Shown: positions 20,639 to 34,716 of the stretch, one piece after another | Numbering within the stretch: the first letter of the stretch is position 1 | How the letters are laid out: each line of letters starts with the position of its first letter | Source: Herpetosiphonaceae bacterium | GTDB taxonomy: Bacteria; Chloroflexota; Chloroflexia; Chloroflexales; Kallotenuaceae | Direction of reading: 5' to 3' | DNA: 34,716 bases | NCBI GenBank assembly: GCA_036374795.1 | Contig: DASUTC010000135.1 | Coordinates: 1 to 34,716 of the forward strand | The notes under the pieces: model-generated | The model's input: only the letters and a program-made list of their open reading frames with translations | Databases searched by the model: none | Told to the model about the DNA's origin: nothing | Translations under genes and position numbers: made by a program

Positions 20639-21322
20639 GCGGAGCGCCATGATCGATAGGAATAGAGTCCTACCGCTCGCATAAAAGCTCTGAAGACCTA
20701 AGCCACCTGTCGATCATGCCCGTACCCGACTCGCGAACATGGCTGCTTTGCTGCACAGTGCTGCATATCTCGATGCGCGAGGAAGTTCTCTTGAGCAGAT
20801 GTAAACGCTAGAGAACCCCAGGAATCTGGCACCACCATTCACAGAAGACAACCGAGATCCACGGATCAGCCCATGACTGAGCTATCCTGACCGGAAGGCA
20901 CAGTCACGCTGTTGCTTGAAGCGGATGTCACAGCAGATCTGCCTGTAGAGCGAAAGAAGATAGAGGGATGAGTCTCATCCCCAAAAAGTGTTACATTGAA
21001 CCTGGCTTCAGTACACGCTCCGGCGAGGAGCAGGAGCATCAATTGAGCGGCACGTTGGAGGATGAGTCTCATCCCCTGCCTGCAAGTGATGGCTGGTCAG
21101 GAGGGATGAGACTCATCCCGGCCTTAACGGAGAGCCGCCACCATCGCAGATCGGATACAATGTGAGCACCGAGCGATGATCAATAGGGATGAGACTCATC
21201 CCTCATGAATACGATCATCAAGTGATTCAGGATAAAATGTAACTATTACGTGCCGATGGGTGGGGGATGAGTCTCATCCTCTTGTCCAGACAGGGAGCAT
21301 GCCGAGAAAGGACGTGGAATAC
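20639..21322. other. Long non-coding region upstream of parA
   Basis: 684 bases without a gene. The first third shows a small palindrome GCAGATCTGC (20933-20942) and little else. The rest carries the five GGATGAG palindromes and the parA promoter. Open frames here, such as 20866-21072 on the minus strand, arise from the palindromes themselves and have no ribosome sites. Confidence 0.6.
20965..21279. repeat. Five palindromic sites GGATGAG(T/A)CTCATCC, parS-like
   Basis: Copies at 20965-20981 (GGGATGAGTCTCATCCC), 21060-21074, 21103-21119 (centre A), 21186-21202 (centre A) and 21265-21279. The core GATGAG-T/A-CTCATC is invariant in all five, and the outer G/C pairs extend three of them to 17 bp. 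Centre-to-centre distances are 94, 44, 83 and 78 bases. The last copy ends 43 bases before the parA start. Sequence between the copies is unrelated, so selection has held the sites themselves. The best reading is a partition centromere and/or ParA/ParB operator; a site for another repressor is possible. It is unlike the usual chromosomal parS (TGTTTCACGTGAAACA). Confidence 0.8.
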
Positions 21323-22102
21323 ATGCAGGTGATTGCCATCGCAAACGAAAAAGGTGGAACAGGCAAAACGACGACAGCCGTCAATGTCTCCGCCGCGTTG
21401 GGTCTGGCAGGCTATCAGGTGGTCGTGATCGACCTGGATAGCCAGGCTCATGCGACGGAATGGCTGGGGCTGAGCAAATCCGGTATCACCCCTGAGCAAT
21501 CGAGCTACGGCGTGCTCACCGGCGCGACTGAGATTGTGGACGCGCTGCATCCAACCACCGAGCAGCAGGTGCGGGTGTGTCCCGGCCATGCCATGCTGGT
21601 GAAAGCGCCGATGGAGCTCAGTACAAACGTCGATGGCCTCTTCGTGCTGCGGGATGCTTTGCATCAGGCCGCAGAGTCAAGCGAGCAGATCGACTACGTT
21701 GTGATCGATTGTCCGGGCGCGATTGGGCCGCTGGTCTATAACGCGCTGATTGCCGCTCATCTGGTGATCGCCCCGGTTCTCTCGGAACTCCTGAGCATCG
21801 AGGGGCTTGGCGAGCTCACCGAGACGGTGCGACGTGTCAAAGCGCGGCACTCGCCGCAGTTGCCGCCGCCGGTGATCCTGATCAATAACTATGAGGGGCG
21901 ATCGACGACTGATCGCCAGATCCAGAGCGGGCTTCGCGAGCAGTTCGGGCGCTCGGTCTTCAACACCTGCATCGGACGCGACGCGCCGCTCCGCGAGGCG
22001 TTCGGCTCGCAGGAGAGTATTTTCCGCTACCGCCGGAGCGCACGGTCAGCAACGGCGTTCCGCGACCTTGCGGCTGAAATTGTGGAGCGACTCAATGGCT
22101 AG
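21323..22102 (+). CDS. parA: ParA-type partition ATPase
   Basis: 259 aa from ATG 21323 (MQVIAIANEKGGTGKTTTAVNV), with AAGGA ten bases upstream. ATG 21299 has GGGAG only one base away and is less likely. The deviant Walker A box KGGTGKTT (10-17), the Walker A' strand VVVIDLDSQAHAT and the Walker B-like YVVIDCPG are all present, along with the C-terminal helix region ending RLNG. There is no N-terminal helix-turn-helix, so it resembles the small Soj / type Ib ParAs. Role: a dimeric ATPase that positions DNA bound by its ParB partner. Its stop overlaps the parB start, and palindromic sites lie upstream. It may be autoregulated through them. Confidence 0.9.
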   Translation: MQVIAIANEKGGTGKTTTAVNVSAALGLAGYQVVVIDLDSQAHATEWLGLSKSGITPEQSSYGVLTGATEIVDALHPTTEQQVRVCPGHAMLVKAPMELSTNVDGLFVLRDALHQAAESSEQIDYVVIDCPGAIGPLVYNALIAAHLVIAPVLSELLSIEGLGELTETVRRVKARHSPQLPPPVILINNYEGRSTTDRQIQSGLREQFGRSVFNTCIGRDAPLREAFGSQESIFRYRRSARSATAFRDLAAEIVERLNG

Positions 22103-23132
22103 AGATAAAAAGCCCGTTGACATCAACAAGTTTTTTAAGAGTTCGGCGCTGGACTTTCTAGCGGGCGCTACTGCCGACGAGCTGGTCGAGCGGGCGACGG
22201 CGCAAGGGCTGCCGATGCTGCATCTGGACCCTGCTGCAATCGCACCTGATCCTGAGCAATTGCGGCACCTGACACACCCTCACATGCTGCTGGCTGAGGC
22301 AGAGCAGGGTGACTCCGTCGCCACTGCGCTGGTTGCGGAGCTGCGCGCGCTCGGCGCATCGATCCGTGAGCACGGACAAATCCAGCCAGTGATCGTCTAT
22401 CCCGATCAAGATGAGGCCAACCCGACGATCACCCATCGGCTGCTGCATGGTCAGCGGCGCTGGAGCGCGGCGATCCTTGAAAGTCTGTCGACGCTCTGGG
22501 CCGTCGAGGTGCCAAAGCCTTCCCGCATCGATCGTGCCCTGCGGCAGTACGAGGAAAATGAGCGGCGCGAGGGCTTTACCGACATGGAGCGAGCCTGGGC
22601 GCTGATCACGTTGAAGGAGGCGCTGGAGGCGGAGAGCGGAGAGCGAGTTCCCTGGGAGATCGTCGGGCAGCGTATGCGGCTGTCGGAACCTCGACGCAAG
22701 GAATTGCTGCGTTTAGCGCGCCGTTTTTCAGTGGATGCTCAGCAAATCATTCAGCGCTATGGCTGGTCGGAGTGGATGCTCCGTCCGATCCACCAGGCGA
22801 TCGAGGACGGCTTGCTGCCACCCGAAGATGCTACCGATATGCTCCGCGTGCTGGCCGAGTCGCAGGAGGTAAACCTGGCGGTGGTTACAGCGCTCGTGAC
22901 AGCCTACCGGCGACAGCAGCCGTCGCGGGATCTCGGAGCGCCGGACGAGCAGCGCACAGAAGCGCCTCCGTCAGTCCTGCCCTATGTCGGACGGCACTTC
23001 GACAGAATCGGACGGAGCCTTGAGCTTGTGCGCACGCAGCTTCCCACAGCCGACGAGCCGACTCGACAGGCCGTGCGCGAACGGGCTGAGCAGCTTCGCG
23101 CACAGATCGACACGCTGCTGAGCGAGCTATAG
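22095..23132 (+). CDS. parB: ParB-like centromere-binding protein
   Basis: 345 aa; ATG 22095 overlaps the parA stop by eight bases, a tight translational coupling. The N-terminal ParB/sulfiredoxin fold shows ELRALGASIREHGQIQPVIVYP (82-103) and HGQRRWSAA (118-126), the counterpart of the CTP-binding GERRWRA box but with Gly-Gln in place of Gly-Glu. A helix-turn-helix region follows (VPWEIVGQRMRLSEPRRKELLRLAR, ~190-215), and a coiled C-terminal helix (RQAVRERAEQLRAQIDTLLSEL) suits dimerisation. Role: binds parS-like DNA and stimulates ParA. The likely sites are the GGATGAG palindromes upstream of parA. The protein is diverged from chromosomal Spo0J, which suggests a plasmid-type system. Confidence 0.82.
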   Translation: MARDKKPVDINKFFKSSALDFLAGATADELVERATAQGLPMLHLDPAAIAPDPEQLRHLTHPHMLLAEAEQGDSVATALVAELRALGASIREHGQIQPVIVYPDQDEANPTITHRLLHGQRRWSAAILESLSTLWAVEVPKPSRIDRALRQYEENERREGFTDMERAWALITLKEALEAESGERVPWEIVGQRMRLSEPRRKELLRLARRFSVDAQQIIQRYGWSEWMLRPIHQAIEDGLLPPEDATDMLRVLAESQEVNLAVVTALVTAYRRQQPSRDLGAPDEQRTEAPPSVLPYVGRHFDRIGRSLELVRTQLPTADEPTRQAVRERAEQLRAQIDTLLSEL

Positions 23133-23190: not shown

Positions 23191-23508
23191 TCAGATCTCG
23201 GCGTCGAGCGTATCGACAAAAAAGGCTACCTGCTGCCACAGCTCTACATTGTCGATCAGCCGCGTCAGCAGCGCCGCAAGCGCCGGATCATCAACCAGCA
23301 GGGCGGCGGGATGGACGCCTAGCGCGGCGGCAACAGCGGCGAGACGCTCAATCGTCAGCGCGCGGCGTCCGTACTCATAGTGCGCCAGCGTATCACGGGG
23401 CCAGCCCAGGCGCTCAGCCAGAGCGGCCTGGGAGAGACGACGGGCCTGACGCACAGCCGCAATGCGCCGCCCGACCACACGAGTCGCCGCGTGAGCATCG
23501 TGGATCAT
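23191..23508 (-). CDS. Small XRE-family repressor
   Basis: 105 aa with an N-terminal helix-turn-helix: VVGRRIAAVRQARRLSQAALAERLGWPRDTLAHYEYGRRALTIERL (residues ~11-56). A C-terminal helical part rich in Ala/Leu follows (VHPAALLVDDPALAALLTRLIDNVELW). Its ATG overlaps the stop of the antirepressor gene as ATGA (23505-23508), so the two are translationally coupled. A phage-type repressor paired with an antirepressor suggests a switch controlling the neighbouring replication gene. No protease or sensor domain is attached. Confidence 0.8.
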   Translation of the reverse strand: MIHDAHAATRVVGRRIAAVRQARRLSQAALAERLGWPRDTLAHYEYGRRALTIERLAAVAAALGVHPAALLVDDPALAALLTRLIDNVELWQQVAFFVDTLDAEI

Positions 23509-24308
23509 GCAAGCTCCTCAGGTGTGCGCTCCGGTAGCGGCTGGCCGGTAAGCTTCTGGTAGGCCCGATCGATGTAGCTGATACAGTCCTGGTACTGGCT
23601 TGCCGGAATGTGCTCATACTTGGCAACCCGATAGCGGGTCTTTAATGCGGCCCAGCATCCGGCAAACGCGCCTGCCGTCGAAAGATGCTCGTGATCGATG
23701 CGCGCCTGTGCCCAAAGCTGCACAAGCTGGTACACATGGCCGCGCTGCGTCGTCGATAAGGTGGCGGTCGTGCCAAGCTGTTCTTCCAGCCGCCGTAGAC
23801 GCTGCTCGTGATCGCGCCACACCTGGCGGGCCTTGTCCTGGCTCTCCTCTAGCGCCTGCTGCCGGGCCGCAATCCCCTGGATCGCTTCATCGTACTGCTG
23901 GAGATCGGCCAGATCTTCGATGTTGCTGCTGGGACCAGGCGGCAGACCGGCGGCATTCGTGATCGCGTCATAGACCTGGCGGATGCTGAAAAGCCGAAGG
24001 TAGCGTAGCCGCTCGCGGACAACAGTTGATGCGCGCGACCGGTTGACGCTGCTGATCCAGGCCGGGACGAATTCGAGGATCAGGAAATCCTGCTCCTGAA
24101 GCCCACCCGCCGTCGGCACGCGCAGCCGATGCATACCATCGCGGAGATCCTCGTCGGCGCGCAGCCGCCGGAGCTGCGACGAAAGATTGAGGCCGGTCGC
24201 GGTACACAGATCGCGGATCGAGAGGACGATCGTCCCATCGGCGAGCCTGGCGGCGAGGACCGGCTGCTCGAAGAAGGTGACAGCTAAGATCTCGGTTGGT
24301 TCGCTCAT
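23505..24308 (-). CDS. Phage-type antirepressor (P22_AR_N plus ORF6C domains)
   Basis: 267 aa. The N-terminal ~110 residues match the P22 antirepressor domain: VTFFEQPVLAARLADGTIVLSIRDLCTATGLNLSSQLRRL, then EFVPAWISSVNRSR. A coiled stretch follows (ARQQALEESQDKARQVWRDHEQRLRRLEEQL, ~145-175). The C-terminus is ORF6C-like: TQRGHVYQLVQLWAQA, FAGCWAALKTRYRVAKYEHIPASQYQDCISYIDRAYQKL. Family knowledge: such proteins neutralise phage repressors or act in lytic switches, and they occur on prophages, plasmids and ICEs. It overlaps the XRE gene and lies downstream of the 46-bp TGTGTCC repeats, which may regulate it. GGGGAG is about 16 bases before the start, so translation may be weak. Confidence 0.82.
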   Translation of the reverse strand: MSEPTEILAVTFFEQPVLAARLADGTIVLSIRDLCTATGLNLSSQLRRLRADEDLRDGMHRLRVPTAGGLQEQDFLILEFVPAWISSVNRSRASTVVRERLRYLRLFSIRQVYDAITNAAGLPPGPSSNIEDLADLQQYDEAIQGIAARQQALEESQDKARQVWRDHEQRLRRLEEQLGTTATLSTTQRGHVYQLVQLWAQARIDHEHLSTAGAFAGCWAALKTRYRVAKYEHIPASQYQDCISYIDRAYQKLTGQPLPERTPEELA

Positions 24309-24400: not shown

Positions 24401-24542
24401 TGTGTCCATTGTGGACACAAGGTGTTGCCTTACGACGACTCCTTCGTAGGGTTATCGATCGCGTGTCGACACGGAAGCCTGCTTAATCCAGCCTATTGTG
24501 TCCACAATGGACACAAGGTGTTGCCTCACGACGACTCCTTTG
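24401..24542. repeat. Two 46-bp direct repeats containing a TGTGTCC palindrome
   Basis: Copies at 24401-24446 and 24497-24542 agree at 41 of 46 positions. Each opens with a 19-bp palindrome, TGTGTCCATTGTGGACACA in the first and TGTGTCCACAATGGACACA in the second, and continues with AGGTGTTGCCT, ACGACGACTCCTT. The palindrome cores are exact reverse complements of each other while the flanks are in direct orientation. A related half-site GGACACA occurs at 25970-25976 upstream of the initiator gene. They sit between the initiator stop (24591) and the antirepressor start (24308), so they are likely operators or replication-control sites. Confidence 0.75.
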
Positions 24543-24590: not shown

Positions 24591-25916
24591 CTAACATGCA
24601 CTGATCACCACCTCGATCTGCACTGGCTGCCCTACAACGGCCTGCAAGGCAGCGGCAAGCAGCGGGGCATACGTGACCGCAACACGTTCACGAGCAAAGA
24701 CATGCGGAGTCGCGATTACAGCCGTGTTGCCAGCAAGCTCGGCCAGCGCGGTCGGACGCAGCCATGTCTCGAAATCAACCGGCGAAACCTGTGGCTGAAG
24801 CGCATCCAGCACCGCCGACCAGATGCGGAGCAGATCGTCGGCTGTCGATGCGCCCACGGCTTCCAGCGAAGGCCCGGCAGACGCCTGCTGCGGCGCAGTG
24901 CCATTTAGCATGCCCGCCTTCGATGCCTGCTCACAGTCAGGGCAACCTGTGCCACGGATGCGCCCATGCGCGCAGTGATAGCGCGCATACTCTCCGTGAG
25001 CAGCATGAAGCTTATCAGACGCGGCTTGCATCCGATCTACCAGCTTTTGGCCGAAGCCCAGCCGCAATAACGAGACGGCAAACGCGGCGGGATCGACGAT
25101 ATTGCGCTGACGACGGGCAAAGCGGAGGCAGGCTTCCACCTGTGGCAGCGGCGTGTGCTTCAATTCGTCAAGCACCAGTGGCGACAGAATGCCCGCCTGC
25201 GCTAATGTTCGGCTGGTTTCGGTTGCATCGGCTGCCGGTGCGTTGCTTGCAGTATCCCGACCACCACCAGAGAATCTGTTTTGGCTTTTAATGGTTTGCC
25301 GGATCAGCTTTGATCGATCGGCAGGTGCAGCATTGATCTCCTGCTCAGGCACAAAAAAAAGCGGGCTGGCTTGCCCCTCGACCTCCACGGGTAGATCCGC
25401 CGCGCGATGACCCTCCTGCTCTGCGTGGATGGTCTGGATCTCAGCGGCAGCAGGCGGCACAGACGACCACGGCTCCGCGTCGTGCATCGGCGGCGCATCC
25501 GACACGGCGTGCTGTGCGGCGTCGTACTGCTGAAGTGGCAAAACATAGGTGTACGAGGTAAGCCCGCCGGGGCGCTGCTTGCGCTCGATCAGATCGGCGC
25601 GCTCCAGAACGTCCAGACGGCGCTTGATCGTGCCGATGCTGGTTTGGAGTCGCTCGGCGAGGTAGTCAAGACCCGGCCAGCAGTAGGTTCGTTCTTTACA
25701 TAATCGAGTAAGCAGCCGGAAGAGCATATAGGCATCGGCGCAGATCCGATGCTGCCAGTAGGCTTCCTCGGCGATGTCAAAGGCGTAGCTCCGCCGCGCG
25801 GCGTACGCCTCGATCGTCGGCGGGCGGGTGGCTGTGCGATCCGCCTGGTGCGGTCGGCTGTGCGATCTCGCTGGACGTGGACGGAATGCGTACACGCCTG
25901 ATTTTTGGGCAAACAT
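24591..25916 (-). CDS. Replication-initiator-like protein: winged helix plus DnaA domain-I-like C-terminus
   Basis: 441 aa from ATG 25916 (MFAQKSGVYAF), with AGGAGGGGAT directly upstream; the frame is open to 26009. Residues ~55-125 form a winged helix typical of plasmid and phage replication proteins: ADAYMLFRLLTRLCKERTYCWPGLDYLAERLQTSIGTIKRRLDVLERADLIERKQRPGG. The middle (~130-250) is low-complexity and acidic. A C-x-H ... C-xx-C group (CAHGRIRGTGCPDCEQ, ~310-325) could bind zinc. The last 82 residues copy DnaA domain I: WSAVLDALQPQVSPVDFETWLRP, ATPHVFARERVAVTYAPLLAAAL. There is no AAA+ motor. Inference: binds origin repeats and recruits helicase or host DnaA through domain I. Repeats flank the gene. 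Confidence 0.72.
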   Translation of the reverse strand: MFAQKSGVYAFRPRPARSHSRPHQADRTATRPPTIEAYAARRSYAFDIAEEAYWQHRICADAYMLFRLLTRLCKERTYCWPGLDYLAERLQTSIGTIKRRLDVLERADLIERKQRPGGLTSYTYVLPLQQYDAAQHAVSDAPPMHDAEPWSSVPPAAAEIQTIHAEQEGHRAADLPVEVEGQASPLFFVPEQEINAAPADRSKLIRQTIKSQNRFSGGGRDTASNAPAADATETSRTLAQAGILSPLVLDELKHTPLPQVEACLRFARRQRNIVDPAAFAVSLLRLGFGQKLVDRMQAASDKLHAAHGEYARYHCAHGRIRGTGCPDCEQASKAGMLNGTAPQQASAGPSLEAVGASTADDLLRIWSAVLDALQPQVSPVDFETWLRPTALAELAGNTAVIATPHVFARERVAVTYAPLLAAALQAVVGQPVQIEVVISAC

Positions 25917-26461
25917 ATCCCCTCCTGCCCTCTTGACAAGGAGGAATCTGGCTGCTAAGCTCATAACAAGGACACAGCAGACTCTCCCTCGTCTGGGAGG
26001 GCAAATCACAAGTGGGTGAGACGGCTCCGCGGTGGTAAACGTTGGGGGCCGTCCCTACGTTTAAAGCACGCACACATCCTGGGCCGAATCAAGGAGCCTG
26101 TGCGGAAACCAGCCGATTCGGCATGAGCAAAGAAAATGATTTAGGGGCTATTCCCGAAGCCCCGGACTGTCGGCCCACCGGGCACGTGCGCTCGTATTGC
26201 TCTGCGCTGTCGTCAGCGCTCATATCGCTATCGAGTGATCCACCTTTCCCCACGCCAGGTACGCGGCCTCCTGCGGCCTCGCTGCCTCTGCCGGGGTTCT
26301 GCTTACAGCATAGAAAATTAGCCCGCAATCGGCAAGAGGTTATGCGCAGACTTTCTCCGCAATTTTCCGCATCTAAGCGCGATTTCCCGCACTTGCGCGC
26401 AAACGGCGTTGCGGGGGTCTGCCACACGGACTCATTCGGGGGTCCATCACACCGGCGATTG

Positions 26462-26576
26462 CCCGCAAAAGCCCGCAAGATCAACATGCGGGCAACTGCA
26501 TACAAGCCGGAGCAGCGCCGCGATTGCTACACCGGCTCGTTTCCCGCAAAAGCCCGCAAGATCAACATGCGGGCAA
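26462..26576. repeat. Two identical 34-bp CCCGCA-rich repeats, iteron-like
   Basis: Identical copies at 26462-26495 and 26543-26576, 81 bases apart. Each holds two CCCGCAA words (CCCGCAAAAGCCCGCAAG) followed by ATCAACATGCGGGCAA, so TGCGGGCAA is inverted relative to the opening TTGCCCGCA of copy 1. The shared leader ACACCGGC precedes both. Degenerate copies of the CCGCA word extend upstream to about 26321. They lie about 550 bases upstream of the initiator start and immediately before the promoter of the ATPase gene. Confidence 0.7.
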
Positions 26577-26624: not shown

Positions 26625-26646
26625 GGCGGCATGAGAGAGGTTGTCT

Positions 26647-27672
26647 ATGGCGCTGCTCGTTCCTGAAATCACTGATGGCCGGATCGATGGCTTTGCCGTT
26701 CCGCATGCCGCACTCGATGCGCTCAACATGCACAAGATCCAGGAGCATATCGAGAACGCGCTTGAGGCTGGTCGGCTGGACCAGGCACCCCGGAAGCCGC
26801 TTGATTTTCTGTACCGCTATCGCTGCGTGGTCGATCATCATGGGACGCCCGTAGCGACGATGGCCGGTATTCTGATGTTCGCGCACCAGCCCCAGTTCTT
26901 CTTTCCACACGCCGATGTGGGCCTGGGGCACTTTCCCAGCTCGGTTCCCGACACCGAAGACGTGATCCACCTGAAGCGCCACGGCGGGACGCTGCCGGAG
27001 CAGATCGACTTCGTCGAAGGGTATCTCTGGTCGAACACGCGGCGCGGCTTTACCGTCGAAGACGGCGCGCGGCGGGTGGAGAAGCCGGAGTATCCGCGCA
27101 AGGTGATTCGTGAGCTGACGGTCAATGCTATCGCCCATCGGGATTACAACTCGACGGGCAAGCATACGCGGGTTTCGATGTTTACCGACCGCATCGAGTG
27201 GGTTTCGCCCGGCGGGCTGCCGGGCGGCATTACCGTCGAGAATATTTTGCAGGAGCAGTTCGCGCGCAATCCGACGATCGCCGAGCTGCTGCATCAGGCG
27301 GGCTACATCGAGCGCTTTGGGATCGGCCTCGACACCGTGATGCGCGAGCTGCGCAAAGCCGGATTGCCCGATCTGGGCATGCGCGATACCGGCGTATCAT
27401 TCACGGTCATGGTCTACGGCCACGACGCGCCCTCGATCCGCGCGCAGACGCCGTTCCGGCTCAAGCTGCTGGAGTACGCCCGGCAGCAGGGCCAGATCAC
27501 GATGGAGGATGCGCGTCGGCTGAACGAGGAGCTTCAGGCTTTCCGCTCCGATCGCTCGCTGCTGAACGACCTCAAAGGATTGGTCGAGGCTGGCTTTCTT
27601 CAGCGCGTCGGTCGATCGCGCGACACCGCCTATCTGCCGGTGGCGATCGATACCGCCATCGACCGCCGGTGA
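26647..27672 (+). CDS. Schlafen/AlbA-type ATP-binding protein lacking its AlbA_2 domain
   Basis: 341 aa from ATG 26647, with GAGAGG six bases upstream. The body matches the C-terminal part of the AlbA_2/HATPase_c_4 family: TMAGILMFAHQPQFFFPHADV, GTLPEQIDFVEGYLWSN, YPRKVIRELTVNAIAHRDY (ATP-site N-box), DRIEWVSPGGLPGGITVEN, RNPTIAELLHQAGYIERFGIGLD. A C-terminal winged-helix-like segment (RLKLLEYARQQGQITMEDARRLNEE) ends it. The usual N-terminal AlbA_2 nucleic-acid-binding domain (ESETLEFK ... GG.LLIGV) is absent; only about 40 unrelated-looking residues precede the conserved part. Such genes are frequent on mobile DNA and in defence regions. It is either a 5'-truncated remnant or a natural short form. 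It has its own promoter. Confidence 0.75.
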   Translation: MALLVPEITDGRIDGFAVPHAALDALNMHKIQEHIENALEAGRLDQAPRKPLDFLYRYRCVVDHHGTPVATMAGILMFAHQPQFFFPHADVGLGHFPSSVPDTEDVIHLKRHGGTLPEQIDFVEGYLWSNTRRGFTVEDGARRVEKPEYPRKVIRELTVNAIAHRDYNSTGKHTRVSMFTDRIEWVSPGGLPGGITVENILQEQFARNPTIAELLHQAGYIERFGIGLDTVMRELRKAGLPDLGMRDTGVSFTVMVYGHDAPSIRAQTPFRLKLLEYARQQGQITMEDARRLNEELQAFRSDRSLLNDLKGLVEAGFLQRVGRSRDTAYLPVAIDTAIDRR

Positions 27673-27725: not shown

Positions 27726-29867
27726 CTAGCCTGCGGCAAGCGCCGTCTGCTCGCGCTCGCGACCGCCGATGATCACATACGTGTCGGCCTCGGCCTCGCC
27801 GCAGGCTGCCAGCACGATCGCCTGGAGCGGCGCGCGAGCCTTGAGCAAGATCTCGTCAAACTCGGCCTCGGCGTCAGAGAGCGCGACGATAGCCCCGCCG
27901 ACGCCAATGCTCGTCGAGGTAGGCGTCATGACGATTGTGCGAATCACAATGCTCAGATCGGACGTGCTGTTCAGGCCCAGAAAGCCGAGCGCGCCGGAGT
28001 AGACGCCCCTGGCCTCCGGCTCCAGATCGTCGAGGAGCGCCATCGTCCGCACCTTCGGCGCGCCCGTCATCGAGCCGCCCGGAAACGCCTGGCGTATACA
28101 GTCGATCGGACTCAGATCCCGGCGCAGGTGGCCGCGAACCGTCGAGACAAGCTGGTGAACGGTCTGATAGCTCTCGACGTGCATCAGCTTGGGCACCGAG
28201 ACGCTGCCGATCTCGCAGACAATACCCAGGTCGTTGCGCAGCAGATCGACGATCATCAGGTTTTCCGCCCGGCTCTTGGTATCGTTGCGCAGGCTATCGC
28301 TCAAGGCGGCGTCTTCGGCAAGCGTCTTGCCGCGCGGCAGGGTGCCTTTGATCGGCTTCGACTCAACGGAGCCATCGCGATCGATCCGCAGGAAGCGCTC
28401 CGGCGACGAGCTGATCACCGAGATCGTATCGAAGCGCAGAAGCGCGGAGTAGGGCGCGGGGTTGATCCGGCGCAGCGTGCGGTAGAGCGTCAGCGGCTCA
28501 GCGACCGCCGTGGTGTGAAGCTGGTTGGTGAGGCAAATTTCGTACGACTCGCCATTGCGGATATGCGCCTGGCACTGCCGGATGTCGTCGAGATAGACCT
28601 CGTAGGGCCTGCTCAAGGAGAAGGCGATCGGCTCCTGCTGATTGCCGTAGCGCAGCGGCGGCAGTGGCCTCAGTTGCCGCAGTTGTTGCTCGATGGTGTC
28701 GAACCAGCGCCGTGCCTCGGCGCTGTCATCCTTGCGCACCAGGCTGACGAGGTAGCAGCTCCGCTCCTGGTGATCGAAGGCGATCAGCCGGTCGCTGAGG
28801 ATGAATGTCGCGTCCGGCAGCGGCGAAGGATGAGCGAGATTCCCTCCGCACTCGGCCTTCAGCTCGTAGCCGAAATAGCCGACAAAGCCGCAGTTGAAAT
28901 CGAAGGGCAGATCGTCGGCACGACAGGCGAGCTGTCGCAGCTCGCGATCCAGGTAGTCGAAGATGCTCTCGTGCGATCGGCGCGTGCCTGCGGCGGTTGT
29001 CACCGTTAGCTCCTGGCTGCCGATGCGGTAGCTGACGAGGCGGCTGAGCGGCCCGTCGTTGGTGCCCATGAATGAGAAGCGCGAGAGGCCGGGCTCGGCG
29101 CGGCTGCTGTCAAGCCAGAAGGCGACCGGCTGGTCGGCCAGCAGGTTGACGAAGACGCGCTCCGGGTCGTGCCAGGTATCGAGCTTGCGCCAGCAGACCT
29201 CGACGTTGCGCTGCGCGGCGGCGCGCTGCTGGCCTTTGGGAATCGTCGAGAAGCCGCTCCACGACCTGCGGCCCGCGCGGTTCGTTCCGTGCTGCCGCGT
29301 GAGATCGCGAAAGTTCTGGAGCAACTGGTAGCCGTACTCGCTACAGATCGACTCAGGGTGGAATTGCACGCCCCACAGCGGCAGCGCCCGATGCTGGATG
29401 CCCATAACGATCCCGTCGGCGGTCCACGCGGTTTTCTCCAGCGAGGTCGGCAGGTCATCGGCGACGATCAAGGAGTGGTAGCGCACGACCGTGAATGGCT
29501 GCGGGATGCCCTTGAAGATCGGCGCGCCATTGTGATAGACCTCGCTCAGCCGACCATGCATCACCTCCGGCGCATGCGTGACAGTGCCGCCGTAGAGGTG
29601 TGCCAGCCCTTGATGTCCCAGACACACCCCTAGAGTAGGCACCCTCGCCGTTAGCAGCGCATCGCGGCAGATGCCGAAGTCGTGCTCGTGTTCTGGCCTT
29701 CCTGGTCCCGGCGAGATCACGATGTTGTCGAACTCCAAATCCTGAAGCTGTGACCAGCCGAGCTGATCGTTGCGCACCACCAGCGGCTCGTCACCGTTGA
29801 CGTTGGCGATCAACTGGTACAGGTTGAACGTGAAAGAGTCGTAGTTGTCGATGATTAGGGTCTTCAC
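27726..29867 (-). CDS. pabAB: Fused PabA-PabB aminodeoxychorismate synthase
   Basis: 713 aa from GTG 29867 (KTLIIDNYDSFTFNLYQLI), with GAGAGG eight bases upstream; the frame runs to 29945 without support. Residues ~1-195 are a class I glutamine amidotransferase: GVCLGHQG (Cys82) and FHPES (His170, Glu172). The rest is the chorismate-binding part: PFDFNCGFVGYFGYELK, NGESYEICLTNQL, SSSPERFLRI, PIKGTLPRG (Lys ~505), RAENLMIVDLLRNDLG, FPGGSMTGAPK. The PIKGT motif marks PabB, where Lys takes part in catalysis, against PIAGT in anthranilate synthase. Reaction: chorismate plus glutamine to 4-amino-4-deoxychorismate, for p-aminobenzoate. No pabC or folate gene is adjacent. The single-chain form is typical of actinobacterial antibiotic clusters. 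Confidence 0.92.
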   Translation of the reverse strand: MKTLIIDNYDSFTFNLYQLIANVNGDEPLVVRNDQLGWSQLQDLEFDNIVISPGPGRPEHEHDFGICRDALLTARVPTLGVCLGHQGLAHLYGGTVTHAPEVMHGRLSEVYHNGAPIFKGIPQPFTVVRYHSLIVADDLPTSLEKTAWTADGIVMGIQHRALPLWGVQFHPESICSEYGYQLLQNFRDLTRQHGTNRAGRRSWSGFSTIPKGQQRAAAQRNVEVCWRKLDTWHDPERVFVNLLADQPVAFWLDSSRAEPGLSRFSFMGTNDGPLSRLVSYRIGSQELTVTTAAGTRRSHESIFDYLDRELRQLACRADDLPFDFNCGFVGYFGYELKAECGGNLAHPSPLPDATFILSDRLIAFDHQERSCYLVSLVRKDDSAEARRWFDTIEQQLRQLRPLPPLRYGNQQEPIAFSLSRPYEVYLDDIRQCQAHIRNGESYEICLTNQLHTTAVAEPLTLYRTLRRINPAPYSALLRFDTISVISSSPERFLRIDRDGSVESKPIKGTLPRGKTLAEDAALSDSLRNDTKSRAENLMIVDLLRNDLGIVCEIGSVSVPKLMHVESYQTVHQLVSTVRGHLRRDLSPIDCIRQAFPGGSMTGAPKVRTMALLDDLEPEARGVYSGALGFLGLNSTSDLSIVIRTIVMTPTSTSIGVGGAIVALSDAEAEFDEILLKARAPLQAIVLAACGEAEADTYVIIGGREREQTALAAG

Positions 29868-30172
29868 CGTGCTTACCTCTCGTGCGCGTCCTGCCTCACA
29901 CCCGGCTGCCTCCCAATGTGCCAGGCAAGTCGTTCTATCTAGCACTAGACATAATTCCTTCTGCGGGGCCTATCTTCAAACGCCCAGGACGAGCCAGAGC
30001 AGTATGATACTCGACATTCGCATACGCTGCCCAGGTTGCTCTACAATCGTAATGTCTTCTAAACCAATAGCCACAAGAAGGTGCAGCCGAGTTCGTTACG
30101 ATATAAAGGAAGCTACTCCGCTGCATCGCAGGCAGCGGAATTGCCTGATACCTTTTGTGAGAGGAGGTCATC
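29868..30172. other. Divergent promoter region of pabAB and the methyltransferase
   Basis: 305 bases between two divergent starts. A small palindrome TCTAG-CA-CTAGA (29938-29949) lies about 70 bases upstream of pabAB. A hairpin TCCGCTGC / GCAGCGGA (30117-30124, 30132-30139) lies in the probable leader of the methyltransferase mRNA, 34 bases before its start. No clear -35/-10 pairs could be assigned. Confidence 0.4.
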
Positions 30173-30985
30173 ATGGACGACACACGCTGGCGGTTGGAAG
30201 AGATCCCGGAGGACAAGCCCAACCCTGCACGCATGTACGATTATTTCCTGGGCGGGCATCATAACTTTGCGGTCGATCGGGCGGCGGCAGATCGGGTTCG
30301 ATCGGTCTATCCCGATGTGGTGCATGGCGCTCAGGCAAATCGCGCCTTCCTGCGGCGGGTGGTCCGTTTTATGGGCGAACAAGGGATCGATCAGTTTCTG
30401 GATCTTGGCTCCGGAATACCGACGGCGGGGAATGTGCATGAGGTCGCGCAGCGGGCTAATCCGGCAGCCAGGGTCGTGTACGTCGATGTGGAGCCAGTGG
30501 CGGTGATCCACAGCGCCGCGATCTTACGAGGAAATGAGCGCGCGACGATCGTCGAGGCGGATGCGCGACAGCCGGAGGAGATCCTCAAGCATCCTGAGGT
30601 TCAGCGGCTGCTGGACTTCAGCAAGCCGATTGGCGTGCTGATGCTGGCGCTCCTGCACTTTGTCACCGACGACCAGGCGGCGCAGGCCCTGGTGCGGCGC
30701 TATCGCGAGGCGCTGGTGCCCGGCAGCTTTATCGCGATTACCCATGCCAGCCTGGAACGAGTGCCCGCCGAGATTGTCACCCAGTTCGAGCGCGTCTACA
30801 GCCAGACGACCACGCCGATCAAAACCCGTGGTCGCGCTCAGGTCGAGCCGCTGTTCAAGGGCCTGGATCTGGTCGATCCCGGCGTTATCTATGTCCCGCT
30901 GTGGCGTCCAGAGGGGCCGGATGATGTGTTTTTGGATCAGCCGGAGCGCTCGATTAATCTCGGCGGTGTCGGACGAGTGCGGTAG
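30173..30985 (+). CDS. SAM-dependent methyltransferase, Methyltransf_19 (DUF574) family
   Basis: 270 aa; GAGGAGGT lies four to five bases before ATG 30173. The family signature is unmistakable: NPARMYDYFLGGHHNFAVDRAAADRV near residue 18, then QANRAFLRRVVRFM, the SAM motif FLDLGSGIPTAGNVHEVA, VVYVDVEPVAV (acidic end of strand 2), VEADARQP, LLHFVTDD and IAITHASLE. Family knowledge: the fold is a class I Rossmann methyltransferase abundant in streptomycetes and Chloroflexota; its substrates are mostly unknown. It stands alone between pabAB and the NRPS gene and converges with the latter. A tailoring role for the peptide is possible but unproven. Confidence 0.92.
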   Translation: MDDTRWRLEEIPEDKPNPARMYDYFLGGHHNFAVDRAAADRVRSVYPDVVHGAQANRAFLRRVVRFMGEQGIDQFLDLGSGIPTAGNVHEVAQRANPAARVVYVDVEPVAVIHSAAILRGNERATIVEADARQPEEILKHPEVQRLLDFSKPIGVLMLALLHFVTDDQAAQALVRRYREALVPGSFIAITHASLERVPAEIVTQFERVYSQTTTPIKTRGRAQVEPLFKGLDLVDPGVIYVPLWRPEGPDDVFLDQPERSINLGGVGRVR

Positions 30986-30989
30986 GGGA

Positions 30990-31070
30990 CGAAAGAACAA
31001 AGAACGAGCGCCAGGCGGGTGCCAGACCCAAAGGGTACCCCGGCATGGGCACCCGGTACACCAAGAACAA
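30990..31070 (+). repeat. Intergenic short-word repeat block C (GAAAGAACAAAGAAC / GCCAGGCGGGTGCC)
   Basis: Words GAAAGAACAAAGAAC, then GCCAGGCGGGTGCC (31010-31023), then ACACCAAGAACAAG. The 14-mer GCCAGGCGGGTGCC recurs in the same orientation at 32999-33012 in the NRPS gene. GGGTGCC (31017-31023) and GGGCACCC (31047-31054) form an internal inverted repeat. It occupies the space between the convergent methyltransferase and NRPS genes. Confidence 0.55.
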
Positions 31071-31149
31071 GGGGGCCGTCAGGTCGGGGCGGGTAGCCCC
31101 ACTATGTCCTCCCCCTCTTCTGCCGCAGTGGGAGAGGAGGCCGGGGATC

Positions 31150-31184
31150 GAAACCGGGGAGGCATCTCGTGCCTCCCCGGTTTC
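31150..31184. terminator. Strong bidirectional terminator, 15-bp stem
   Basis: GAAACCGGGGAGGCA (31150-31164) pairs perfectly with TGCCTCCCCGGTTTC (31170-31184) across a 5-base loop. The flanking A and T runs give a short U-stretch on both strands. It lies between the methyltransferase stop (30985) and the NRPS stop (31229 on the other strand), which suits termination of both. Confidence 0.75.
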
Positions 31185-31228
31185 TGCTCGCTCAAGGCGC
31201 AACGGCGCGCCCATCCGATCCGAAGCCG

Positions 31229-34200
31229 TCAGTCTTTTTGCACGGCAAGGCAATGATCGATGATCGCCTGCAACGTGTGCATAAAGCTGTCGGCAAGGCA
31301 CTCAATCGTCGCGGGCTGGTGGCGATTGGTGCTATAGACCCATGTCACCTGCAACTGTCCAGCGATCATCACAGCATTGATCTCGATCAGATAGCGCCGC
31401 GCGCTCTCAGGGCTGCGGGTAGGGCCGATCGACTCGTCTGTCAGGCCGCGAATCAGCGATCCGCCGAGCACCTGATCGATCTGGCCCAGGTAGTTGAAGT
31501 TGATTTCAGCCTGCGGCAGCGCCCGCATATGCTCGACGATCTCCGGCACATCGCTGAGGTAGCGCAGCACGCCGTAGCCGAAGCCTGCGTGCGGAATCCG
31601 CTGTAATTGGGCTTTGACGGCCTGCAATCCGCGCTCGATGTCGGCTGGGGAATCCATGCTGAGCAGGACGGGCACGACAGCAGTAAACCAGCCAACCGTG
31701 CGCGACAGATTGAGCTGCTCGAAGCGATCGGCGCGGCCATGCCGATCGAGATCGACCAGCACTGCGGAATCGCCAATCCATGGAGCCAGCGTCAGCAGCA
31801 TGGCCGTCAATAACACATCGTCGATCCGCGTCTGATGGGCCTGATGGACCTCGTGCAGTAGCGCCTGGGTCCGTGCGGCGCTCAGTCGCCGCGTAGCCAG
31901 CGCCGCCGACGCCTCGCTATTGCTCCCATGCGGATCGTCGCATGGCACGCGAGCAGCCTCGGTCGGCAGCGCTTCCCGCCAGTAGTCCCACTCGGCAAGC
32001 AACTCCTGCGTTCTGGCATAGTCCCGCAGGTGCGCGGCCCACTGCTGGTACGATGTGGTCTTGGGCGGCAACTGGGCGGTCGTGCCGCGACTCAACTGCT
32101 CATAGGCGGTCTGAAGATCTTCAAGCAAGATGCGCCAGGAGACAGCATCGATCACCAGATGATGCGCGACGATCAGCAGGCGACCCGATCGATCCGGTCC
32201 CCGGTTGAAATAGACCGCCTGCGCGATCGGGCCGGTTGTCATGTCGAGGCTGCTCTGGATCTCGGTGGCCTGGGCTTCGATCGCCGCCGCCTGCTCCGGC
32301 GCTGACAGCCCCGACAGATCAAGCGATTGGCACGGAACGACAGCCTCCGATCCCGCCGTCGTCTGCCGCCAGCCGTCGCGCTCACGGAAGAAGCGCAGCC
32401 GCAGCGCGTCGTGGTGCTGCGCTAGGTGATCGAGCGCCGCGTTCAATCGCTCGGCATCCAGCGCTGGAGGCACCTCAAGCAAGAGAGCGAGATTCCAATG
32501 GTGTGGCGCGGCCAAGGGCTGCTCGAAGAACCAGTGTTGAATCGGCGTCAGCGGCACGTCGCCAACCACCAATCCCTGCTCGATCGTCGGCTGACTGGCG
32601 GATGCAGCGGCGGCTAGCTCGGCGATCGTCTGGTGCTGGAAGATCTGCCGGGGTATAAGGTGCAAGCCCTGCTGCGCCGCCCGCGCGATGATCTGCATGC
32701 TCAGGATCGAATCGCCGCCGAGCGCGAAAAAGTTGTCATGAATGCCAACCTGCTCCAGTCCCAGCAGATCGGCCCAGATCCTGGCAAGCTGCCGCTCAGC
32801 CTCGGTACGTGGCAGCGCAAGCTGTTCGTTGACTGTGGCGCGCTCAGGCGCGGGCAATGCCTTGCGATCGATCTTGCCGTTGGGCGTGAGTGGTAGCTGA
32901 TGCAGAAACACGAAAGCGGACGGCACCATATACTCTGGTAGGCGCGCTCCCAGGAACGCGCGCAAATCGGCAGAACTAGGAACGGCTGCCACGCGGATGC
33001 CAGGCGGGTGCCCAACAAACCAAGAACTGTCCTCCGCTTCCCCGTGGTTCTGCGTGCTGTGTGCCTGGCTCTCCGTTTGTTCCCTTGTGCGCCCAGAAGC
33101 CACCCGGTTGCCTTGTTCTGCTACCACATACGCCACCAGCCGTTTCTGCCCTGCCTGATCCTCACGGGCGAGCACCACGCTCTGCCGGATCTGTGGATGC
33201 GCCTGCAGCGCCGCCTCGATCTCGCCCAGCTCGATCCGGAAGCCGCGCAGCTTCACCTGCCCGTCGTTCCGTCCCAGGAACTCGAGCCTGCCGTCCGCCC
33301 GCCACCGTCCCACATCCCCCGTGCGATAGAGTCGCGCGCCGACCTCAGCAGCGAACGGATCGGGCACGAAGCGCGCGGCGGTCAGATCGGGCCGCTGGTG
33401 GTAGCCCCGCGCCACCTGCACGCCGCCGACATAGATCTCGCCCGCCACGCCGATGGGCGTCGGCTGCCCCTGCCGATCCAGCACATGCACCTGGACGTTG
33501 CCGATCGGACGACCGAGATCCGGCGCGCGCGCGGCCTGCTCCCGCGGCGGCACGACGCCCGCCGTGGCGACGACGGTGTTCTCGGTCGGGCCGTAGTGGT
33601 TGACCAGCGCAAAGGGCAGCCGCGCGGCGGGGTAGCCCCGAAGCTGATCGCCGCCGGTCAGCAGGGTCCGCAGCGGCGACGCAGACGGCCAGGGCAGCGC
33701 GATCACCTGCTCGGCCAGCGGCGTCGGCGCGAAGGCGATGGTGATCGCGCACGCGAGGAGCCAGTCACGCAGGCGGGGCGGCGACACGCGGGTATCGGGC
33801 GCGGGGAGGTAGAGAGCCGCACCGGCGGCGAGGGCGGGCCAGATCTCCCAAACGCTGGCATCGAAAGCCAGGCCGGCGAGGTGGGTGGTACGATCCCGGG
33901 GGGAGAGGGCCACGGCGCGCTGGTGCCAGGCGACGAGATTGAGCAGCGCGCGCTGGGGCACGGCGACGCCTTTGGGCTGCCCGGTGGAGCCGGAGGTGTA
34001 GATCAGATAGGCAAGCTGTTCGACGCAGACGACCTGCCCTGGATCGGTTTCCGGCTGGCGCATGATCGTCGGCCAGTCGGCGTCGAGGCACACGAGACGG
34101 GCGGCATCTGGCGGCAGCACGGCAGTGAGCGACGCTTGAGTCAACACGATCGGCGCGTGGCTGTCGTCGAGCATAAACCGCAGCCGGGATGGCGGCATGT

Positions 34201-34716
34201 CGGGATCGAGCGGCAGATAGGCCGCACCGGCCTTGAGAATGCCCAGCATGCCGACGATCAAATCCGCCGAGCGATGGAGGCAGACAGCGACACAGGTTTC
34301 TGGCCTGACGCCAAGGCTGCGCAGGTAGTACGCCACCTGATTCGCGCGCCGGTTCAATTCGGCATAGGTCAGCGTCTCCGACCCATCGACCACGGCGGTG
34401 GCTGCGGGATTGTTGACAGCCTGCTGCTCGACGAGCTGATGAACACCGCGATCGGTAGGATAGGGATCGGCGGTGGCGTTCCACGCGGCCAGCAATTCCT
34501 GCTCCGCTTTTGTCAGCAGCGGCAGCGTGGCGATCGGCTGGTCGGGATCGGCCACCACCGCCGTCAGCAGCCCCTCGAACTGGGCCAGCAGCCGCTTCAT
34601 CGTCGCCCCCTCGAACAGATCCGTGTTGTACTCCAGCCAGCCCTTCAGCCCCCCCGCCACCTCCATCAGGTTCAGCACCAGATCCACCTGCGCCGCCCCG
34701 CTCGCCACCTCCTCCT
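31229..34716 (-). CDS. Non-ribosomal peptide synthetase, 3' part: (C)-A-T-E, Leu-type code
   Basis: The frame runs off the right edge, so the N-terminus is missing; 1,162 or so codons are visible. In order: the end of a condensation domain (LFEGATMKRLLAQFEGLL); an adenylation domain with LIYTSGSTGQPKG, FDASVWE, NHYGPTENT, RLYRTGDVGRW and NGKIDRKALPAP; a carrier domain with FFALGGDSILSMQ (Ser for phosphopantetheine); and an epimerisation domain with PLTPIQHWFFEQ, HHLVIDAVSWRIL, RTVGWFTAVVP and INFNYLGQ. My reading of the ten specificity positions is DAWFLGHVVK, one change from the known Leu code DAWFLGNVVK, so D-Leu after epimerisation is expected. No thioesterase follows. A ~40-residue insertion lies between AYVVAEQGN and LRAFLGARLPEYMVP. 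Confidence 0.95.
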   Translation of the reverse strand, partial: EEVASGAAQVDLVLNLMEVAGGLKGWLEYNTDLFEGATMKRLLAQFEGLLTAVVADPDQPIATLPLLTKAEQELLAAWNATADPYPTDRGVHQLVEQQAVNNPAATAVVDGSETLTYAELNRRANQVAYYLRSLGVRPETCVAVCLHRSADLIVGMLGILKAGAAYLPLDPDMPPSRLRFMLDDSHAPIVLTQASLTAVLPPDAARLVCLDADWPTIMRQPETDPGQVVCVEQLAYLIYTSGSTGQPKGVAVPQRALLNLVAWHQRAVALSPRDRTTHLAGLAFDASVWEIWPALAAGAALYLPAPDTRVSPPRLRDWLLACAITIAFAPTPLAEQVIALPWPSASPLRTLLTGGDQLRGYPAARLPFALVNHYGPTENTVVATAGVVPPREQAARAPDLGRPIGNVQVHVLDRQGQPTPIGVAGEIYVGGVQVARGYHQRPDLTAARFVPDPFAAEVGARLYRTGDVGRWRADGRLEFLGRNDGQVKLRGFRIELGEIEAALQAHPQIRQSVVLAREDQAGQKRLVAYVVAEQGNRVASGRTREQTESQAHSTQNHGEAEDSSWFVGHPPGIRVAAVPSSADLRAFLGARLPEYMVPSAFVFLHQLPLTPNGKIDRKALPAPERATVNEQLALPRTEAERQLARIWADLLGLEQVGIHDNFFALGGDSILSMQIIARAAQQGLHLIPRQIFQHQTIAELAAAASASQPTIEQGLVVGDVPLTPIQHWFFEQPLAAPHHWNLALLLEVPPALDAERLNAALDHLAQHHDALRLRFFRERDGWRQTTAGSEAVVPCQSLDLSGLSAPEQAAAIEAQATEIQSSLDMTTGPIAQAVYFNRGPDRSGRLLIVAHHLVIDAVSWRILLEDLQTAYEQLSRGTTAQLPPKTTSYQQWAAHLRDYARTQELLAEWDYWREALPTEAARVPCDDPHGSNSEASAALATRRLSAARTQALLHEVHQAHQTRIDDVLLTAMLLTLAPWIGDSAVLVDLDRHGRADRFEQLNLSRTVGWFTAVVPVLLSMDSPADIERGLQAVKAQLQRIPHAGFGYGVLRYLSDVPEIVEHMRALPQAEINFNYLGQIDQVLGGSLIRGLTDESIGPTRSPESARRYLIEINAVMIAGQLQVTWVYSTNRHQPATIECLADSFMHTLQAIIDHCLAVQKD
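32999..33110 (-). repeat. In-frame repeat-derived insertion within the NRPS adenylation domain (block D)
   Basis: This stretch encodes residues unlike any A domain (RVASGRTREQTESQ ... SSWFVGHPPG) in the C-terminal subdomain, just before the conserved LRAFL-x-LPEYMVPS. Its DNA shares GCCAGGCGGGTGCC (32999-33012) with 31010-31023, GTGCGCCCAGAAG (33087-33099) inverted with 5203-5215, GGCGGGTGCCC inverted with 14035-14045, and CCAAGAAC with the other blocks. Reading frame is preserved. Confidence 0.65.

Follow-up and report, generated by a model that had tools for sequence, protein, structure and literature searches.

The window, that is, the whole stretch of 34,716 nucleotides that was analysed, comes from a contig of a Herpetosiphonaceae bacterium (genome G000) and carries a gene, here called rep, that encodes an initiator-like protein. 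Partition-type genes lie on one side of it and a set of iterons on the other. In the list below, class A denotes the tagged proteins with an HTH_36 body, to which Rep belongs, and L029 is the orthologous locus in a congener (genome G003), whose Rep is the nearest relative at 46% identity.

20,965–21,281, unstranded: five parS-like palindromes, GGATGAG[A/T]CTCATCC, upstream of parA.
21,260–22,102, plus strand: parA gene (PF13614, E 9.6e-40), with a start possibly further in, at MQVIAIANEKGGTGKTT.
21,891–23,132, plus strand: parB-like gene (ParB_N E 8.8e-6, just below the cut-off; TIGR00180 E 7e-10), with a homologue next to the Rep gene of locus L012.
23,191–23,508, minus strand: XRE-type helix-turn-helix gene, overlapping the start of the antirepressor-like gene of the module.
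23,505–24,308, minus strand: P22_AR_N / ORF6C antirepressor-like gene (Pfam and PHROGs), found again beside related Rep genes.
24,401–24,515, unstranded: two 19-bp palindromes, TGTGTCCA-N3-TGGACACA, in the gap that separates rep from the antirepressor-like gene; they may be operators.
24,591–25,916, minus strand: rep gene, 441 amino acids; winged helix, variable linker, helical middle part, optional zinc-knuckle motif and C-terminal DnaA domain I.
24,600–24,839, minus strand: C-terminal DnaA domain I of Rep, amino acids 360–439 (profile, sequence comparison with solved structures, predicted fold).
24,927–24,974, minus strand: zinc-knuckle-like motif, HCAHGRIRGTGCPDC, shared within class A with L029 only.
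24,987–25,220, minus strand: helical middle part of Rep, amino acids 233–310, conserved across class A as QRN..DPAAFAV.L...GFG (AlphaFold model).
25,542–25,814, minus strand: winged-helix domain of Rep, amino acids 35–125, with HTH_36 at amino acids 74–110 (PF13730 over the cut-off, predicted fold).
26,304–26,402, unstranded: first part of the candidate origin, with AT-rich CATAGAAAATTAG and, after it, CCCGCAA-like iterons; L029 is near-identical here.
26,459–26,495, unstranded: 37-bp iteron unit 1, with two direct and one inverted CCCGCAA.
26,540–26,576, unstranded: 37-bp iteron unit 2, 97% identical to unit 1 and 81 bp away from it (82 bp in L029).

The rep reading frame starts with an ATG at 25,916 that is preceded by a ribosome site, AGGAGGGG, and the start of its homologues agrees with this position; we therefore consider the reading frame real. 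An earlier note on this DNA, made from the letters alone, had read an N-terminal winged helix, and this was borne out both by the HTH_36 match and by predicted-structure searches, in which the N-terminal region matches winged-helix folds at Z 8–10. It is the expected DNA-binding part, and the N-terminal part also matches several phage replication-initiation families (PHROGs). The likeness to RepA_N initiators (4pt7, 4pql) is that of winged helices in general, and no match to the RepA_N domain (PF06970) was found in Rep at E values up to 1. The zinc knuckle proposed in the same note stood in part. The motif is present (HCAHG...GCPDC, amino acids 314–328) and conserved in L029 (HCRHG...GCSDC), but the alignment shows that it is absent from all other class A relatives and is thus optional; a search for a role of the motif gave no trace of one. 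Rep is not a complete DnaA: the Pfam search found neither the AAA+ motor of domain III, whose absence the note had already pointed out, nor the DNA-binding domain IV, and the NCBIfam DnaA model matches Rep over model positions 1–74 only.

The C-terminus had been read as DnaA domain I, and three methods agree in confirming this identity. DnaA_N (PF11638) matches amino acids 365–425 at E 3.6e-10, scoring 39.8 bits where the cut-off is 24.6. A phmmer search with the last 84 amino acids against PDB chains found domain I of Bacillus subtilis DnaA (4TPS, E 7.3e-10) and its Escherichia coli counterpart (2E0G, E 2.6e-4). In an AlphaFold model of Rep built on eight relatives, amino acids 359–439 form a block with pLDDT of about 87–93 and the order helix-helix-strand-strand-helix-strand; comparison of this block with 4TPS was strongly positive (TM 0.95 by target length, Z 16, rmsd 1.0 Å, 82 residues). 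Profile and fold were the two tests on which the earlier note had staked its reading, and neither refuted it. The tag, as we call this domain, also aligns with DciA bound to Vibrio cholerae DnaB (8a3v_C, Z 9.2, rmsd 7.8 Å), where the aligned domain contacts the helicase, but that match is far weaker than the one to DnaA domain I.

The residues by which domain I makes its contacts are kept in the tag. T384, W385 and F407 of Rep correspond to T26, W27 and F49 of B. subtilis DnaA, which are essential for the recruitment of DnaD and hence of the helicase (PMC10201431). E. coli DnaA binds DnaB through E21 and F46 and dimerises through W6 (PMC5448010); Rep has D381 at the position of E21, and W366 corresponds to W6. 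All of W366, T384, W385 and F407 are invariant across eight class A sequences, and the TW pair and the F are kept in nearly all other tags, the exceptions being L021 (L for F) and L037 (IW for TW). Rep thus shares with chromosomal DnaA domain I itself, the contact residues for helicase and DnaD and the dimer tryptophan, but it carries the domain at the opposite end of a protein without an AAA+ domain or a domain IV.

The candidate origin lies about 390–660 bp upstream of rep. The sequence, order, orientation and spacing of its CCCGCAA iterons are conserved at L029, where the units have the same location and a different spacer inside the unit. Both loci also share CATAGAAAATTAGCCCGCAA, a possible melting start, and a partly degenerate array of repeats with a spacing of about 10 bp. 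When a motif model was trained on L029 alone, the four best sites in the window, and nine of the best twelve, fell inside 26,319–26,576. Of the 34 CCCGCA sites in the window, nine are concentrated in the 0.8 kb around the candidate origin (binomial P 6e-8, for a region that was picked after the repeats had been seen). Repeats and an AT-rich stretch near rep, conserved at the orthologous locus, are what an iteron-type plasmid origin consists of, and the repeats are putative Rep-binding sites. No DnaA-box-like site was found near the candidate origin; the single match in the window, at 31,276, is far off and expected by chance. Rfam gave no match in 20.0–27.7 kb. The direct-direct-inverted plan of the iterons is similar at L020, with a different core sequence. 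The Rep proteins of L017 and L020 are 76% identical and near-identical in their HTH regions, yet their upstream repeats visibly differ, which would be explained if the replicons are compatible and their sites have diverged, or if a different part of the protein does the binding. Just past the iterons begins an ORF (26,641–27,672) whose match to an ATP-binding helicase-like family is confined to the C-terminal part of that family (HATPase_c_4; PHROG positions 197–479 of 485); it is probably an N-terminally truncated gene.

On the other side of rep, the window encodes a clear ParA and a likely ParB, the latter resting on the two profile matches given above, with the five palindromes upstream of parA. 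A homologous ParA/ParB pair with four related palindromes (GGTATGAGCCCTCATACC sites) accompanies the class C Rep of L012. Judged by their sequences, ParA, ParB, the parS-like sites, the antirepressor-like gene and the XRE gene would make up a complete replicon module with rep and the candidate origin. In three genomes (G000, G003 and G004), ParA and the P22-antirepressor-like gene recur beside Rep genes, although their order and orientation vary. Such recurring modules are how a compatible low-copy replicon family would look. The antirepressor-like gene regularly accompanies these rep/par modules (window 23,505–24,308; L018, L020, L022, L027, L029, L030, L031 and L034), and its usual place is between rep and parA. 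The contig of the window also carries ordinary metabolic genes, and its ends do not overlap as those of a circle would. In 27,726–34,716, ORF translations show a fused anthranilate/aminodeoxychorismate synthase-like gene and, close to it, a large NRPS gene truncated by the contig end.

The chromosomal-type genes on the contig, the truncated look of the neighbouring ORF and the presence of three tagged Rep genes on another contig of the host would all fit a rep gene that is a non-functional relic of an integrated plasmid. We regard this as improbable, since the frame is intact, the contact residues and the origin are conserved and the par genes are intact as well.

A search of plasmids led to proteins of Bacillales that are annotated as 'DnaA N-terminal domain-containing protein'. 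Among them is the protein of pBS72 and of the vector pHT01 (WP_032490596.1), in which HTH_36 is combined with a C-terminal DnaA_N. pBS72 is an established theta replicon that is used for vectors, and its RepA resembles the Rep of the window in that its N-terminal half contains HTH_36 and its C-terminus DnaA_N; some of its relatives on Bacillales megaplasmids adjoin ParA. Profile comparison of class A with the Bacillales set by hhalign (A2 against A3) gave a colinear alignment with probability 97.6 and E 3.4e-12, in which the middle parts align poorly. The two proteins come from different phyla and are 16% identical over aligned columns; the middle part is different in class A, two members of which also have the zinc-knuckle motif. 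Whereas pBS72 RepA is single, the host of the window has 12 tagged proteins on several bodies. The earlier note had called the order of domains unusual, but it is not a one-off: it recurs on Bacillales plasmids and 12 times in the host genome itself. The order is of a known kind, already present in Bacillales in a class of theta-plasmid initiators that is annotated but has received little discussion. A literature search covering few subscription papers found none that discusses the C-terminal DnaA domain of pBS72 RepA. RepN (oriN, DnaA-independent) was considered as a further precedent and rejected: pBS32 of B. subtilis, which we take to carry repN, shows an ORF for a 'replication initiator protein A' and no DnaA_N-like ORF.

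A comparable division of labour is known from staphylococcal RepA_N initiators, which are modular, with a winged helix and a C-terminal domain thought to be host-specific; the HTH of the hybrid pPR9 Rep is pfam13730, the family that Rep matches too (PMC5703833). As is proposed for Rep of the window, RepA_N proteins of the pSK41 type and pPR9 Rep join a winged helix for iterons to a C-terminal domain for a host partner. In these proteins, however, this domain is DnaD-like and binds the DnaG primase.

A single winged helix of this kind is common in regulators, and proteins that target DnaA domain I inhibit initiation (PMC5448010, PMC10201431). Rep might then be a regulator whose tag acts as a decoy, titrating DnaB or its loaders or damping host initiation, as SirA and YfdR do by binding domain I. 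The conserved iterons upstream, the adjoining par genes and the homology to pBS72 RepA make this very unlikely in our judgement.

In the host genome, which comprises 7.75 Mb in 373 contigs and has a contamination rating of 4.9%, there are 13 matches to DnaA_N. L015 is the true DnaA; in the other twelve, the window gene among them, the domain is C-terminal. The twelve bodies fall into three classes: five with HTH_36 (class A), two with DnaD_N (class B) and five of about 740–825 amino acids (class C), for which the one member scanned (L012) has no Pfam match besides the tag. BLAST between the classes finds little beyond the tag region. The class C model, with a mean pLDDT of 55, was too poor for a structure search, although its C-terminus has the same order of secondary structure as the tag. 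What is new here is that a single genome has twelve C-terminal DnaA domain I tags, carried by at least three different bodies. On one 206-kb contig of the host (G000:C347), three C-terminally tagged genes, two of class C and one of class A, lie at 12.7, 82.0 and 94.9 kb; this contig could be either a multi-replicon plasmid or a stretch with integrated replicons.

Tags outside DnaA also occur in other genomes of the same family: G003 has four and G004 five, G001 and G002 have a single one each, and G005 has none. Among the matches listed for 158 genomes of the bacterial class, class A bodies occur in G000, G003 and G004 only, and other C-terminally tagged proteins occur in more distant members. 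Most genomes of one family of the class have a second DnaA_N match in a protein of about 670–810 amino acids, which represents another tagged body type; in L054, L055, L056 and L058 (genomes G109, G112, G110 and G131) this conserved protein seemingly ends in a tandem pair of DnaA domains I, of which the first is degenerate. A scan of named genomes gave three loci where the match is confined to the tag region, and viral contigs yielded no relative. Recent capture of the whole tag from the host dnaA is unsupported for most tags, which are 22–48% identical to the DnaA of their own genome; higher identities, to the DnaA of congeners, were seen for L012 (58%) and L038 (54–55%).

As to partners for the tag, a search of six genomes found DnaB in each, and DciA gave no match in seven genomes searched (no PF05258 match in the host). 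DnaD_N is matched by the class B proteins that carry the tag and by a few further proteins; outside the tagged set, three of the related genomes have no match. Direct docking on DnaB would be the simplest reading, by analogy with E. coli. A DnaD_N-type protein adjoins a second DnaB-type helicase elsewhere in the host (G000:C367, 33,207–35,168), and this pair probably marks an accessory element that has a helicase and a loader of its own.

The contact helix can be compared with the DnaA of the respective host. From the F46/F49 position onwards, the DnaA of G004 reads FVRQE, against FAREK in the DnaA of the G000 genus. The V, the Q and the E are present in all five G004 tags, which sit on at least three body types, and in 3, 0 and 0 of the 18 other tags, respectively. 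The rest of the G004 tags does not match the host DnaA: the two DnaAs differ in 27 further columns, and in only one of these do all five tags match; eight of the 18 other tags share that match, which makes it non-diagnostic. Permuting the labels in a test of overall similarity, which ignores descent, gave p of about 1e-4. With the motif left out, the five tags scatter over the tree (about 70–80 columns, weak), and on the tree there are five changes to Q, leaving out the false match of L040 (SRQEF, outside the motif). The codons of the motif differ from those of dnaA, and recent gene conversion is therefore unsupported.

This pattern fits selection at the helicase-contact helix and is best taken as a lead, coming from one genome and seen after the fact. 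Shared ancestry or chance, in place of host adaptation, has an even chance of explaining the FVRQE match. The signature is confined to five tags of one genome and was noticed once the data had been seen, the trees are weak, and an AU test does not reject a single clade of all G004 rows (p 0.11). The spread of V, Q and E over several bodies, the near-silence of the other 27 columns, the scattering of the tags once the motif is removed and the deviating codons speak against it. This doubt concerns the co-evolution claim only. On balance we put forward tentatively, and with somewhat more reserve than conviction, that DnaA domain I is a portable C-terminal tag for docking on the helicase, acquired by several unrelated plasmid initiator bodies (HTH_36, DnaD_N and the large Pfam-less body), whose contact helix evolves to match the host DnaA.

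For the protein of the window itself, the idea of the earlier note that an initiator docks on host partners through a borrowed domain has gained support. The identity of the domain, its conserved contact residues, the homology to pBS72 RepA, the phage families, the candidate origin with its iterons, the par module with its parS-like sites, the 12 tags on three bodies and the presence of DnaB without DciA all favour an initiator, and the docking would follow from the contact residues; the lack of a nearby DnaA-box-like site and the metabolic genes and non-overlapping ends of the contig count against it. We consider it likely that Rep is a theta-type, plasmid-style initiator of the pBS72 RepA kind with its own origin and a DnaA domain I tag for helicase recruitment. 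Its N-terminal winged helix would bind the CCCGCAA iterons at 26.30–26.58 kb and help to open the adjoining AT-rich stretch. The tag surface formed by T384, W385 and F407 would then recruit the host DnaB, directly or via a loader, so that Rep would need no AAA+ motor of its own. Judging from the neighbouring genes, ParA and ParB would segregate the replicon through the parS-like sites. More generally, DnaA domain I may serve as a portable C-terminal adapter, with fusions to three or more initiator bodies in a single genome.

The tryptophan W366 might also pair Rep with domain I of the host DnaA. Derivatives of pBS72 have been described as DnaA-dependent (PMC5615212), and the tag may thus work with the host DnaA rather than replace it. 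Taken further, the tag would mainly pair with DnaA, domain I to domain I, and DnaA would bring the helicase, leaving Rep as an auxiliary organiser of a DnaA-dependent origin. The conservation of W366 in the tags, at the position used for dimerisation in E. coli, is in keeping with this. We nevertheless find it rather unlikely, because T384, W385 and F407 on the helicase side are at least as well conserved, the host-matching residues sit on that side too, and the candidate origin has no DnaA-box-like site nearby.

If the tag of Rep is indeed a helicase-docking device, it would be a simple natural case of a plasmid initiator that recruits the replisome without an AAA+ motor, and it would offer a clean test of whether one small helix sets plasmid host range. 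The same domain in the pBS72 RepA of common B. subtilis vectors makes the idea testable at once in a laboratory strain, and the candidate origin is a starting point for a vector for this NRPS-bearing lineage. Should the portable tag and its matching to the host prove true, the tag would help to set host range, as has been proposed for the C-terminal domain of RepA_N initiators.
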